Positions 744 through 54,651 of a stretch of DNA of 64,000 nucleotides are shown here, in pieces. Below the pieces are notes generated by a model, which was not told where the DNA came from, ran no database searches, and saw only the letters and a list, made by a program, of their open reading frames with translations. This DNA is from Comamonadaceae bacterium ALPHA2B. Lineage in GTDB: Bacteria; Pseudomonadota; Gammaproteobacteria; Burkholderiales; Burkholderiaceae_C. Every line of letters starts with the position of its first letter. Positions within the stretch are counted from its first letter, which is position 1. A program made the position numbers and the translations under genes. The stretch covers positions 1 to 64,000 of the forward strand of contig SCOE01000022.1 of the NCBI GenBank assembly GCA_005503065.1, given 5' to 3'.

Positions 744-815
744 AAAAGTGCAATCGGGCTGCAGCGCCCGCCAGCCGGGCGTTGCGGCCGAATTCGTCAC
801 GAACGTGACGATCTC
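744..815 (+). repeat. Dispersed repeat R1, copy A
   Basis: About 72 bp in the gap between convergent tolA and pip. It starts AAAAGTGCAATCGG, continues through a GC-rich middle, and ends with a near-perfect palindrome TCGTCACGAACGTGACGA (794-811). Copies at 27323-27393 (same strand), 34013-34092 and 54582-54651 (opposite strand) share the start and end blocks, and a partial copy lies inside comEC at 5629-5690. Confidence 0.8.
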
Positions 816-4427: not shown

Positions 4428-6944
4428 TCACGGCAGCGGGGCCGGCCGATGCTGCCAGTAATGCGGCGCCACCTGGCGCTCGCAGGCCAGGATGGCAGGC
4501 GCCTGGCTGCGCCAGCGCAGGGCGCCGCAGCGGGGCGAGTCGACGATCTCCACGCCGCGCTCCCGGTAGCGGGCCACCACCTCCGGGGCCGGATGCCCGA
4601 AGCGGTTGCGCCAGCCGCTCTGAACGACCACCCGGCGCGGCATGACGGCGTCCAGGAAGCCGGCGCTGGACGAGGTCTTGCTCCCATGGTGCGGCGCCAG
4701 CAGCAGATCGGCGTGCAGCGCGTCCCCGGCGCGAGCGACCAGCGCGGCCTCCTGCGCCCGCTCGATGTCCCCGGCCAGCAGCGCCCACGCGCCCGCATGG
4801 CCGATGCGCAGCACGCAGGACAGGCCGTTGGGCTTGGTCGCGGTCGCGTAATCGGCCGGCAGCGGGTGCAGCACCTCGAAGCGCACGCCGTCCCAGTCCC
4901 AGTGCTGGCCGGCCTCGCAGCGCACCGAGGGCCGCAGCGCCTGCAGCGGGTGCCCGGCCTCGATCGAGCTCAGCAGCGCCGCCTGCGGCTGCATGGTCAG
5001 GACGGCCGCCGCGCCCCCCGTGTGGTCGCTGTCGCGGTGGCTCAGCACCACGGTATCGAGCGTGACGCCCTCGGCACGCAGCAGCGGCACCAGCACGCGG
5101 TGGCCGGCATCGCTCTCGAGGCTGTAGCGCGGGCCGGCGTCGTAGAGCAGGCTGTGCGTGGCGGTGCGCACGATGACGGCATTGCCCTGCCCCACGTCGG
5201 CGGCCAGCAGCTCGAACTCGCCTACCGGCGGCTGCCCCGCCGGCCACAGCAGCACCGGCGCGATGAGCGGCAGACCGAGCAGCCGCATCGGCAGCGGCAG
5301 GCGCATCGCGATCAACAAGCCGCCCGCGACGCCGGCGATGGCGGCCCACAGCGCCGGCGCGGGCGTCGACACCGTGGCGCCCGGCAGCGCTGCCAGCGCC
5401 TGCAGCCCCCAGCCCAGCCCCTGCACCGCCCAGGCTGCGGCCTGCCACAGCGGCGGACAGAGGATGCCCAGCATGGCCAGCGGTGTGACCACGAGCGTCA
5501 CCCAGGGGATCGCCACCGCATTGGCCAGCAGCCCGACCAGCGACAGCTGCTGGAAGAGCAGCAGCGACAGCGGCGCAAGCGCCAGCGTGACGACCAGCTG
5601 CTCGCGCAGCAGATGCCAGAGTTTCGAGCCAAATCGGGCTGCAGCGCCCGTCCCGCCTGCACGAGGCGCTCCGGAATCCGTAGCAAACAGCACCCCCACG
5701 GCAACGAAGCTGAGCCAGAAGCCGGCCTGCATGAGCGCCCACGGGTCGAGCGCCACCACGCCTGCGCAGACGGCCAGCCAGGCGAAGGGCCAGGGCCAGC
5801 GCCGGGCCGACAGGCGCAGCAGCGCGGCCAGCGCCAGCATCCACACCGTGCGCTGCGACGGCACGCCCCAGCCGCTGAAGAGCGCATACAGCGCCGCCAG
5901 GCCCACGCCGCCCACCAGCGCGGCATGCGGCGCCGGCCAGCGCAACAGCAGGCGCGGCCTGCGCCGCCAGAGCCAGCGCACCAGCGCCGCCGCCAGCCAG
6001 GCGAACATCGTCACGTGGAGGCCCGAGATGCTCATCAGGTGGGCCACGCCGGTGGCACGGAAGATGTCCCAGTCGGCGCGGTCGATGGCGGCCTGGTCGC
6101 CCGTGACCAGCGCCGCGATCACCCCGGCCAGGCGCCGGTCGGCCACCTGTGCGTCGATGCCCTCGCGCACCGCCTCGCGCGCCCGTTCCACCGGGTGGGC
6201 CCAGCCGTGGCCGAGCAGCTCGGGGGCCGCGTCGTGCCCGCCGATGCGCACGTAGCCCGTCGCCTGCAGGCCCTGTTCCCACAGCCACAGTTCGTAGTCG
6301 AAGCCATGCGGGTTGCGGTTGCCATGGGGCGCCTTGAGCCGCACCGTGAACGCCCAGCGCTGGCCGGCGTGGACCTGCGGCAGCTCCACCGTGCGCGCGC
6401 TGGCGCCTTCGTCGGCACCGCGTGACCAGGCCCCGGTGTCCGCCGCATACCAGCCCAACGACAGCCGGGGCGGTACCTGAGGCGGCGGGCCCGACGCGCC
6501 TGAGGCCCGGCGGACTTCATCCACGTCGAAGCGGAAGCGCACGCCGGTCTCGTTGCGCTGGGGCATCTGGGCCACCACGCCGACCACGCGAATGTCCTGG
6601 CCCTCGAGGGCCGGATCGAGCGCATCGGCGAGGTACGCGACGGCCCGGCCGCCCGTGGTGCCGAAGCCCAGCGCCAGCCCGGCGACGAGGCCCATCGCCG
6701 CCAGGCCGATGCGGCCGCGCCGCGGCAGCGGCATCGACGCCGCCAGCACGCCCGCCACGACCACCACGGCGTAGACCGGCCAGCCCCACAGCACCGGCTG
6801 CTGCAGTTGCAGCGCGGCGCCCAGCACACTGCCGGCCAGCAGCGCGAAGCCGCGCCCGGCCCCCCGCCGCCCTTCCACGGCTGACCCCTCGACCTCGTCG
6901 AACTGCGGCGCCGCTGGCGCGCCCTCCCCTTGCCCTCGTTCCAT
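4428..6944 (-). CDS. comEC: ComEC/Rec2, DNA uptake channel protein
   Basis: 838 residues from the chosen start, the usual size for proteobacterial ComEC, the inner-membrane channel that takes transforming single-stranded DNA into the cytoplasm. Order: N-terminal hydrophobic and DUF4131-like part, multi-helix competence domain (roughly 230-560; LMSISGLHVTMFAW is a typical stretch), then a C-terminal metallo-beta-lactamase domain with HRDSDH at 636-641 and a later LLAPHHGSK. The ATG opening MERGQGEG has a GGAAGG ribosome site 8 bases upstream; a longer start at 6995 has its purines directly against the ATG, so it was not chosen. Residues about 419-439 are encoded by a copy of repeat R1, apparently read in frame. 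Competence in this organism is inferred, not shown. Confidence 0.92.
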   Translation of the reverse strand: MERGQGEGAPAAPQFDEVEGSAVEGRRGAGRGFALLAGSVLGAALQLQQPVLWGWPVYAVVVVAGVLAASMPLPRRGRIGLAAMGLVAGLALGFGTTGGRAVAYLADALDPALEGQDIRVVGVVAQMPQRNETGVRFRFDVDEVRRASGASGPPPQVPPRLSLGWYAADTGAWSRGADEGASARTVELPQVHAGQRWAFTVRLKAPHGNRNPHGFDYELWLWEQGLQATGYVRIGGHDAAPELLGHGWAHPVERAREAVREGIDAQVADRRLAGVIAALVTGDQAAIDRADWDIFRATGVAHLMSISGLHVTMFAWLAAALVRWLWRRRPRLLLRWPAPHAALVGGVGLAALYALFSGWGVPSQRTVWMLALAALLRLSARRWPWPFAWLAVCAGVVALDPWALMQAGFWLSFVAVGVLFATDSGAPRAGGTGAAARFGSKLWHLLREQLVVTLALAPLSLLLFQQLSLVGLLANAVAIPWVTLVVTPLAMLGILCPPLWQAAAWAVQGLGWGLQALAALPGATVSTPAPALWAAIAGVAGGLLIAMRLPLPMRLLGLPLIAPVLLWPAGQPPVGEFELLAADVGQGNAVIVRTATHSLLYDAGPRYSLESDAGHRVLVPLLRAEGVTLDTVVLSHRDSDHTGGAAAVLTMQPQAALLSSIEAGHPLQALRPSVRCEAGQHWDWDGVRFEVLHPLPADYATATKPNGLSCVLRIGHAGAWALLAGDIERAQEAALVARAGDALHADLLLAPHHGSKTSSSAGFLDAVMPRRVVVQSGWRNRFGHPAPEVVARYRERGVEIVDSPRCGALRWRSQAPAILACERQVAPHYWQHRPAPLP
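5629..5690 (+). repeat. Dispersed repeat R1, partial copy E inside comEC
   Basis: On the plus strand this stretch reads AATCGGGCTGCAGCGCCCG followed by diverged matches to the rest of R1, ending near GTAGCAAACAG where intergenic copy C has GTAACAAACGT. It lies antisense within comEC and supplies codons for about 21 residues between two membrane segments. The match to copy A over the first 19 bases and to copy C over the centre is clear; the far end is degenerate. Confidence 0.65.
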
Positions 6945-7083
6945 CCCTTGAACCTTCCGCGCCAGGCACAGCACCATGACGCTGTCGTGGCGCATTCCTT
7001 GCTTGGCTTGTCGGCTAGTATGGCGCCGGTCGGTCGCGCCATCGCGCGGACCGTACCCATAACAAGCACCCGAGCCTCAACCC

Positions 7084-14634: not shown

Positions 14635-14669
14635 TTTGCTATCGAAAAGATAGCTTCTCGCGCAATACC
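14635..14669 (+). repeat. Dispersed repeat R2, copy 1
   Basis: TTTGCTATCGAAAAGATAGC then TTCTCGCGCAATACC. GCTATC and GATAGC form a six-base-pair hairpin around GAAAA. Related sequence occurs at 44560-44630 and, inside coaBC, at 63949-63968. It lies 6 bp after the transglutaminase stop codon. Confidence 0.6.
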
Positions 14670-14719
14670 GGCGGGCGCCGCCGGCCGATTTCATTCATAA
14701 CCCTGTCAGGAGAACTTCC

Positions 14720-27322: not shown

Positions 27323-27393
27323 AAAGTGCAATCGGCCCACAGCGCACACAGGCCGGGCGCTGCGGCCGAATTCGTCACAAACGTGACGATCTC
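27323..27393 (+). repeat. Dispersed repeat R1, copy B
   Basis: AAAGTGCAATCGG start, CCGGGCGCTGCGGCCGAATT centre and TCGTCACAAACGTGACGATC end. It is in the gap between convergent DUF1398 and dehydrogenase genes, as copy A is between convergent genes. The end palindrome has one mismatch relative to copy A. Confidence 0.8.
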
Positions 27394-32281: not shown

Positions 32282-32376
32282 GGGGTCATGCCCTCCGGCC
32301 GGTCGGGTTCAGGTTTGACGAAGCTGGCGCTGCGCCGCTTCTGAGGCAGGGGCCGGGATTTCGCCCCGGCGGGCGA

Positions 32377-32410
32377 CCTACTTTTCTTTGCCTCGCCAAA
32401 GAAAAGTAGG
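32377..32410. repeat. Left-arm hairpin of the repeat island
   Basis: CCTACTTTTCTTTG and CAAAGAAAAGTAGG form a perfect 14-bp stem around CCTCGC. It is one of two near-identical hairpins, each inside an arm of the island. The stem lacks a following T-run, so it is not a typical intrinsic terminator, but it could stall RNA polymerase or protect an mRNA end. Confidence 0.75.
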
Positions 32411-32858
32411 CAAAAGAAAGGCGACCCCACTGTCTGCGTCCCTCCGCTTCGCTACGGGCAACCTGCGGTGCTCGCGGCTGGCGGGGTCCGCGCAAACTCG
32501 CTTCGCTCAAACATGCGCGGCCCTTGATCCGCCAGCCGCTGCGCTCCTCGGCGCACACAGAGGGGACCAGGGTCAACAAGGCTGCTGCGCAGCCTTGTCC
32601 TTCTTCAATGTTTTGGCGAGGGCCGAGCGAAGCGATGGCCCGATCGAAGTCCCTTCTGGATGCGCCTGTGACGTGGCGCTGGCGGGGTGGCCGCTGTGCC
32701 GCGTGCGGCAACAGCGGCTTCGTGATCTGACTCGCTGCAGCTGTTTGAGCGCAGCGCGTAGCGCGTAGCGAGTTCTGCAGCGCACCCCGACAGCGACGCG
32801 GCGCAGGTTGCCCGTAGCGAAGCGGAGGGTCGCAGCCAGCAGGGTCGCCTTTTCTTTG

Positions 32859-32892
32859 CCTACTTTCTTTTGGCGAAGCAAAAGAAAGTAGG
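32859..32892. repeat. Right-arm hairpin of the repeat island
   Basis: CCTACTTTCTTTTG and CAAAAGAAAGTAGG form a perfect 14-bp stem around GCGAAG. Relative to the left hairpin the A/T tract is shifted by one base on both sides of the stem. The compensating changes keep the stem perfect, which suggests selection for the secondary structure. Confidence 0.75.
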
Positions 32893-33019
32893 TCGCCCGC
32901 CGGGGCGAAATCCCGGCCCCTGCCTTCAACCAGGCGGCAAGGCCTAAAAAAACCTACCGCCCCCACCCTCTCCCAAAGGAAGAAGGCGCCATACCCGCGC
33001 AAGAAGCAACGACCCAGCC

Positions 33020-34012: not shown

Positions 34013-34092
34013 GAGAGATGATCACGTTTGTTACGAATTGCTCGGCAACGCAGACAGGACGGGCGCTGGCGGCCGATTGCACTTCGTGCTTT
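34013..34092 (-). repeat. Dispersed repeat R1, copy C
   Basis: Read on the minus strand: AAGTGCAATCGGCC, then GCGCCCGTCCTGTCTGCGTTG, ending AATTCGTAACAAACGTGATC. It fills most of the 117-bp gap between kguK and kguD inside the operon. The end palindrome is partly decayed. Its middle resembles the comEC copy more than copies A or B. Confidence 0.75.
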
Positions 34093-44559: not shown

Positions 44560-44630
44560 AATTGCTACTGAATTGATAGCTGCTTGCGCCCGCCCCATGA
44601 GAGCTGTAGCCACTTTTTGCCTTGAAGCTT
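44560..44630 (+). repeat. Dispersed repeat R2, copy 2
   Basis: ATTGCTACTGAATTGATAGC then TGCTTGCGCC, AGAGCTGTAGCCAC and TTTTTGCCTTGAAGC. This is the longest R2 copy, in the 157-bp gap between lipase and patatin genes. GCTACTG...TGATAGC and the trailing block resemble dispersed repeats I know from Acidovorax and relatives. Low GC compared with surroundings. Confidence 0.65.
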
Positions 44631-54581: not shown

Positions 54582-54651
54582 AATCGTCACGATCGTTACG
54601 AGTTTGGCGCCAGCGCCCGGCCGGTGTGGGCTGCGGTCCGATTGCACTTTG
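54582..54651 (-). repeat. Dispersed repeat R1, copy D
   Basis: On the minus strand: AAAGTGCAATCGGACCGCAG, then CCGGCCGGGCGCTGG and TCGTAACGATCGTGACGATT at the end. It lies between the divergent parE and MFS genes, so unlike A and B it is not between convergent genes. It sits 118 bp upstream of the MFS start. Confidence 0.75.

Follow-up and report, generated by a model that had tools for sequence, protein, structure and literature searches.

Parts of a 2013 survey (PMC3733652) describe REP sequences that lie in frame inside open reading frames (ORFs) of several bacteria, many of them in replication and repair genes, and mention the palindromic elements of Rickettsia. In passages of PMC8049555, RAYTs are described as genes that occur in single copy, are inherited vertically and spread REPINs. 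For betaproteobacteria, including Comamonadaceae, sections of PMC3110155 report the Beta-proteobacterial repeat element (BRE), a dispersed element of ~90 bp that is sometimes found in coding sequence and has four copies in Rhodoferax ferrireducens T118.

We analyzed a repeat, here called E1, of which one copy lies inside comEC in the window, the whole 64,000-nucleotide stretch of DNA under study, which comes from a Xenophilus-like bacterium. As in the GTAG and CGTC families of REP/RAYT systems, to the extent that these are set out in the relevant passages of PMC3733652, E1 is a short dispersed repeat that is mostly extragenic and has some copies in frame in conserved proteins, DNA-repair genes included, and in part of the genomes a Y1 transposase gene has an adjoining repeat copy. 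Unlike REPs, E1 is ~65 bp long, has a consensus without a GTAG or CGTC tag and shows weak conserved pairing. Such a tag at the end of a 20–40 bp palindrome was absent from the E1 consensus of the window genome and from the consensi of the other genomes. The consensus of the window genome folds at -21.1 kcal/mol, but RNAalifold found only two conserved pairs in an alignment of 36 copies. Polaromonas, Rhodoferax, Delftia, Acidovorax and Variovorax are absent from the main text of PMC3733652.

With the Rickettsia palindromic elements, E1 shares its in-frame position in unrelated housekeeping proteins (for E1, in 16 of 20 Rhodoferax stretches), a likeness of description. The Rickettsia elements are longer than E1, and their host belongs to another class of bacteria. 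A literature search for a named Comamonadaceae repeat of the E1 kind returned only BRE, from which E1 is set apart by description: R. ferrireducens G105 has at least 150 E1 matches, as against the four BRE copies given for T118 in part of PMC3110155, and the two differ in length (~65 versus ~90 bp).

The repeat copy in comEC

The gene that contains the repeat was assigned to comEC by its Pfam domains (DUF4131, residues 72–250; Competence, 296–565; Lactamase_B, 600–780) and by its closest solved relatives, which are ComEC entries such as 9vcb. The bounds of the comEC copy were set with a profile of sampled regions. The relevant features of the window are as follows.

4428–6995, minus strand: comEC, encoding an 855-aa DNA-uptake channel protein
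5622–5686, plus strand in repeat orientation, antisense to comEC: E1 copy of 65 bp inside comEC
14636–14697, minus strand: second E1 copy, in the gap from a TGA stop to the following ATG and so, by eye, intergenic
44562–44626, minus strand: third, weaker E1 copy, apparently intergenic, by eye
745–812, plus strand: copy of the presumed R1 family, with AATCGGGCTGCAGCGCCCG in common with the comEC copy
27323–27390, plus strand: presumed-R1 copy
34018–34084, minus strand: presumed-R1 copy
54583–54650, minus strand: presumed-R1 copy

The comEC copy is in frame and free of stops, and it is translated as residues 437–458 (FATDSGAPRAGGTGAAARFGSK), numbered from the ATG at 6995. In the sense of comEC, the E1 consensus from the profile of sampled regions is approximately TTGCTATcGAtTtgATAGCTGCTcGCGCAgGCgGGaCGGGCGCTGCAGcCCGATTTGGCTtGAA; the outer bounds of the repeat are ~64 bp apart, with a consensus TTCAAG...ATAGCAA. 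When the window genome was searched with positions 5615–5700, 40 scored matches were obtained from 282 first-look candidates. The best non-self match has an E-value of 1.5e-16 (87% over 67 bases), and all 39 non-self copies lie at E 2.5e-7, the weakest value, or better, which excludes chance likeness. That a GC-rich loop resembles a repeat by chance or composition alone therefore has a vanishingly small probability; nothing speaks for it, and it is also at odds with the third-base GC content of the E1 codons, which is 45% as against 92% across the remaining gene.

An initial annotation of this DNA had described a repeat match antisense in comEC and read in frame, which the 40 own-genome matches bear out. 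Its placement at 5629–5690 and approximately residues 419–439 was right as to a repeat within comEC, but the bounds are now 5622–5686 and residues 437–458; the former residue numbers fit a comEC start about 17 codons further in than the ATG at 6995. The annotation called the repeat R1 without defining the name. We took R1 to be the longest dispersed family of the window, which is a sister family of E1 with a core in common and has four copies in the window and eight in 356 kb of sampled sequence. The comEC copy scores 51.4 bits with the E1 profile and 10.8 bits with the presumed-R1 profile, and its membership in presumed R1 is ruled out by these values. The name is thus correct if R1 meant E1, and mistaken if it meant the longest dispersed family.

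A scan of the window against Rfam gave no match over the gathering threshold; the sole weak match, isrG, was rejected at 14.3 bits against 100. The window also contains an inverted repeat of 124 bp and 91% complementarity (32344–32467 and 32802–32925, 334 bp apart).

Distribution of E1 and its candidate transposase

E1 was searched for with a model built on 36 dispersed copies from seven genomes, none of them a comEC copy. At least 20 matches were found in 15 of 36 genomes of the window's family in a first set, under stricter filters, and in 14 of 33 further family genomes, with high counts being lower bounds (no more than 90 candidates per genome were scored in the first set and no more than 150 in the further set). 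There was no match to the model in any of 24 order-level outgroup genomes. The family corresponds to group f1 of the genome collection; it is called Comamonadaceae here and may include near neighbours. E1 is abundant in only part of this family.

The presence of E1 in comEC follows the abundance of the repeat. The comparison covered 57 family genomes whose comEC loop could be read (missing, split or unfetched loops were left out, as was G107, whose matches are identical to those of G008). In these, comEC carries E1 at the DNA level, with at least 8 bits, in 19 of 26 E1-rich and 1 of 31 E1-poor genomes (Fisher p 1.7e-8, related genomes being counted apart). A comEC tree built without the loop, and without 14 near-duplicate or badly parsed loci, requires 24 changes of E1 state and contains eight independent pairs that differ in E1 richness; approximately six of these are concordant for comEC E1 and none is opposite (median p 0.031). 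The initial annotation had expected a true insertion to be restricted to species with the repeat, and both comparisons, 19/26 versus 1/31 and about six versus none of eight pairs, strongly agree with it. The comEC of seven of the 26 E1-rich genomes scores below 8 bits for E1. Of the six E1-rich members of the window's genus, five retain the comEC copy; the sixth, G008, is one of those seven and has 30 matches and an eroding copy.

Of 51 genomes searched, 43 have a Y1 transposase domain (23 of 24 E1-rich, 20 of 27 E1-poor), mostly as one match, and the RAYT loci examined have genes for ~230–240 aa. All four sequences tested match the NCBIfam model REP_Tyr_transpos (REP-associated tyrosine transposase), three of them over the cut-off; the window genome's own scores 71.9 against a cut-off of 80. 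An E1 copy of at least 10 bits follows the RAYT stop at a distance of 2 bp in the window genome (G000), 2–3 bp in G002, G010, G049 and G100, and 13 bp in G033. Six of 21 E1-rich loci have such a neighbouring copy and none of 19 E1-poor ones does (p 0.021 by Fisher's test, again with related genomes counted apart); the other 15 E1-rich loci have no E1 of at least 10 bits after the gene. In 125 kb around RAYT genes, 8 of 11 E1 matches are no more than 700 bp from the domain (p 0.0025). We infer that the RAYT probably moves E1. As the cause of E1 abundance, the presence of a RAYT is weakly supported: it differs little between E1-rich and E1-poor genomes (p 0.053), and most E1-poor genomes have the transposase as well.

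The sequence TGATRTGTCCC occurs ~40–60 bp after the RAYT gene (L325, L336 and others) at 13 of 21 E1-rich and 2 of 19 E1-poor loci, and bare TGTCCC is present within 200 bp of the gene at 21 of 21 and 13 of 19, respectively. TGATRTGTCCC may be the transposase's own terminal repeat.

The ComEC loop and the origin of its copy

In the predicted model of the window ComEC, a helix (residues 424–439) is followed by a coil (440–450) and a second helix (451–481), the block 441–450 having a mean pLDDT of 54. E1 spans the low-confidence coil and the ends of both adjoining helices, in agreement with the loop between membrane segments in which it had been placed. The segment from WLSF to the next helix has 41 residues in the window, 32 in 18 of 21 rows of other families, 36–44 in E1-less congeners and up to 94 in some relatives. 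Because the E1-less congeners have loops of similar length, E1 gives no net lengthening relative to the nearest relatives. The solved ComEC 9vcb aligns through the loop, which is four residues longer there than in the window ComEC. The initial annotation's description of the repeat as inserted is therefore apt in comparison with most rows of other families but not with the congeners, and its suggestion that the repeat adds a linker is supported neither by the congeners nor by 9vcb.

The motif FATDxG is present in 73 of 118 distinct family loops and in 0 of 21 outgroup rows. Of 37 ComECs that were picked by hand and lack E1 at the DNA level, 28 keep its T, 34 its D and 32 its G, and E1-less relatives often retain the motif with GC-rich codons. 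The presence of the same residues without the repeat, regarded in the annotation as an argument against an insertion, is thus found within the family, but the outgroup rows lack the motif. Judged from the sequences, FATDxG with GC-rich codons may be read as an E1-derived loop that was recoded once the E1 family had been lost.

At the canonical position of 42 E1-bearing loops, the codons are nearly uniform (TTT in 41/42, GCT in 41/42, GAT in 42/42 and GGA in 38/40, with the third base of Thr free), a uniformity that is inflated and partly built in by the choice of these loops for E1 likeness. Most flanking invariant codons of the same loops have a third-base GC fraction of 0.70–1.00, the exception being one flanking Phe (TTT in 37/42). 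Both codon sets, the 42 loops with E1 and the 37 without, were picked by hand and leave out loops with E1 further in and the early branches of the family.

All 20 comEC E1 matches of at least 8 bits have one orientation and, by eye, one frame, at a site common to many genera. The arm pair GCTAC/GGAGC is found in 40 of 110 distinct comEC loops with an arm pattern and in 10 of 283 dispersed copies; the rarity of this comEC-typical pair among dispersed copies favours a single origin. It is improbable that the local family has instead inserted afresh in each lineage, with the loop as a hot spot. Recurrent insertion of this kind would fit the likeness of the copies in the window genome and G029 to their own families, the entry of another repeat, E2, into the same loop at two positions, and the start of E1 further into the loop at eight loci (L018, L022, L073, L074, L113, L114, L117 and L125, by profile or eye). 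It sits poorly with the single orientation and frame of the 20 matches, since several frames are open, and with the sharing of FATDxG by E1-less relatives.

E2 is a second GC-rich repeat (GGGCCGCCCCAAGG...CCCCCTTGGGGGGC), in frame in the comEC loop after E1 in L056, L075, L096 and L099, before E1 in L111 and L114, and without a called E1 in L100. It has 12 matches in sampled regions of nine genomes and may be BRE. Several relatives have a further stretch resembling E1, but oppositely oriented, within or close to the comEC region for the N terminus: L057:1593-1637, L092:1594-1629, L098:1583-1629, L022:1624-1666 and L103:1361-1407.

We consider it moderately likely that E1 is a REP-like mobile repeat, tolerated in the ComEC loop after a single old entry and probably renewed there. 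The ~65-bp repeat, probably moved by the RAYT that most family genomes carry, would have entered the inter-helix loop once, in a stop-free frame, in the ancestor of a large part of the family. It would be harmless there because the loop admits wide variation in both sequence and length. Lineages that keep the E1 family would mostly have retained a recognizable comEC copy, and those that lost the family would have kept a similar loop, often with FATDxG, in recoded DNA. In the window lineage, the comEC copy now appears to resemble the genome's own repeats, and it would probably have been renewed by conversion or re-insertion. Points that weigh against this account are the 24 changes of E1 state on the comEC tree, the seven E1-rich genomes below 8 bits in comEC, the lack of a GTAG or CGTC tag with only two conserved pairs, and the 15 E1-rich RAYT loci at which no E1 of 10 bits follows the gene.

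Renewal was assessed in seven genomes by comparison with each genome's own repeats. With profiles of dispersed copies, limited to copies outside the hits by which regions of G000, G100, G101 and G105 had been chosen, the own genome ranks first for the comEC copy in six of seven. When four genes are taken together, a copy fits the profile of its own genome best in 12 of 21 cases, where three are expected (comEC 6/7, other genes 6/14). A stricter comparison with raw copies puts the own genome ahead of every other for comEC in only two of seven, the window genome and G029, and first for mutS in five of seven; for the window genome's comEC copy, its own repeats were best in 200 of 200 equal-size subsamples. 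The tests disagree, and renewal of the comEC copy from the genome's own repeats is possible on these comparisons, with the best support in the window genome.

Strict vertical descent, in which one ancient insertion decayed plainly without conversion and own-family likeness reflects common ancestry, is a rival that we regard as rather unlikely. The shared site, frame and orientation and the comEC-typical arm pair are what it predicts, and in the raw-copy comparison the copy is more similar to an ortholog than to its own genome's repeats in 4/7 genomes for comEC and 6/7 for mutS. In five close ComECs, moreover, the synonymous difference in E1 (0.16–0.38) is not below that of the remaining gene (0.15–0.22; every p at least 0.12), and this lack of slowing gives no sign of maintenance within these five. 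Plain decay is harder to reconcile with the AT-ending TTT, GCT, GAT and GGA codons, which should not last so long without renewal or constraint (in a set picked by E1 likeness), and with the best fit of the comEC copy to the own profile in six of seven genomes.

E1 copies in other proteins

By a stricter codon test, 25 of 275 copies in seven genomes are in frame inside ORFs; as expected of REPs, E1 has many dispersed copies, mostly outside coding sequence. In the window genome, the same test leaves 2 of 48 copies as candidates for an in-frame position; a naive count of 7/48 in this GC-rich genome was discarded, as these read as antisense ORFs. Twenty query stretches from Rhodoferax, representing 19 proteins (PurL twice), were taken from a looser list (10/10 of G100 and 10/12 of G105), and for 16 of them the match to a family profile runs unbroken across E1. 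Twelve exceed the curated cut-off across E1: GluQRS, AcnA, HpnE, HpnC, PurK, an HlyD-family adaptor, MutS, PurL at two sites, DapF, GcvP and GcvT. Four match below it: PolA, with a query cut by the stretch end, and relatives of RlmI, phospholipid synthase and MoeA. TrmB, TsaC, TrmJ and a molybdopterin oxidoreductase gave no family match across E1. Several frames and both strands of the repeat are read, and its copies are predicted from sequence to be read as protein inside enzymes of related species. The initial annotation held that repeats that become part of a protein are rare outside Rickettsia; this view is not supported, since E1 lies in many proteins of relatives and parts of PMC3733652 list in-frame REPs in several bacteria.

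Three enzymes were compared across genomes. The A2 profile contains no comEC copy but includes the acnA copy of G100 and the mutS and purL copies of G105, whose own scores are thereby inflated. Relative to the solved cytosolic aconitase 3sn2, the AcnA of G100 has an 18-residue insert at E1; E1 of at least 10 bits occupies this one site in 8 of 16 E1-rich and 0 of 5 E1-poor genomes read (acnA was unparsed in 2 of 23 rows), and the window genome's acnA has no E1 there. In PurL, E1 is strong in 5 of 18 rows read (G105, G100, G049, G054 and G101; 7 of 25 rows were misread as other ORFs), with segments of 44–55 residues as against 34–36 in 11 of the other 13 rows. MutS shows E1 likeness of at least 10 bits in 14 of 20 E1-rich and 0 of 5 E1-poor genomes read, the window's MutS not being among the 14 (1 of 26 rows was misread as another ORF), and its segment has one length, 62 residues, in 24 of 26 rows, for which a simple insertion does not account. 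CTA codons in the E1-like DNA of mutS are kept across many genera (loci L266–L291).

The MutS pattern bears on two further proposals. E1 could be a selected DNA-level signal, such as an uptake or chromosome-organizing site, towards which coding sequence drifts; this would explain both the constant length of MutS and the restriction of its E1 likeness to E1-rich genomes. We consider this very unlikely, given the outer bounds of E1 ~64 bp apart, its association with longer PurL and AcnA, and the unslowed change in comEC. Alternatively, RAYT-linked repeats might rewrite stretches of conserved proteins in place, so that the local sequence of ComEC, MutS and aconitase would be set by the current repeat consensus through templated replacement and concerted evolution, and not by gene descent, in MutS without a change of length; this proposal is speculative and, in our estimate, unlikely.

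The comEC copy of E1 is neither a fresh linker nor a rarity. E1 is a new family of an already known kind, the in-frame REP-like repeat, and its copy in comEC is real, in frame, old and situated in a tolerant loop. The fixed-length MutS copies that partly follow the repeats of their host may be a new feature. In-frame mobile repeats were already known from Rickettsia and some REP-bearing bacteria; here they occur in mostly environmental betaproteobacteria, in which the repeat is predicted to be read as protein in enzymes of competence, DNA repair, purine synthesis and the TCA cycle. The old common sites in comEC, mutS and acnA, together with the purL site, which only a few of the genomes read have filled (strongly in 5/18), make it possible to ask how repeats enter proteins, what proteins can tolerate and whether repeat families are able to overwrite coding sequence.
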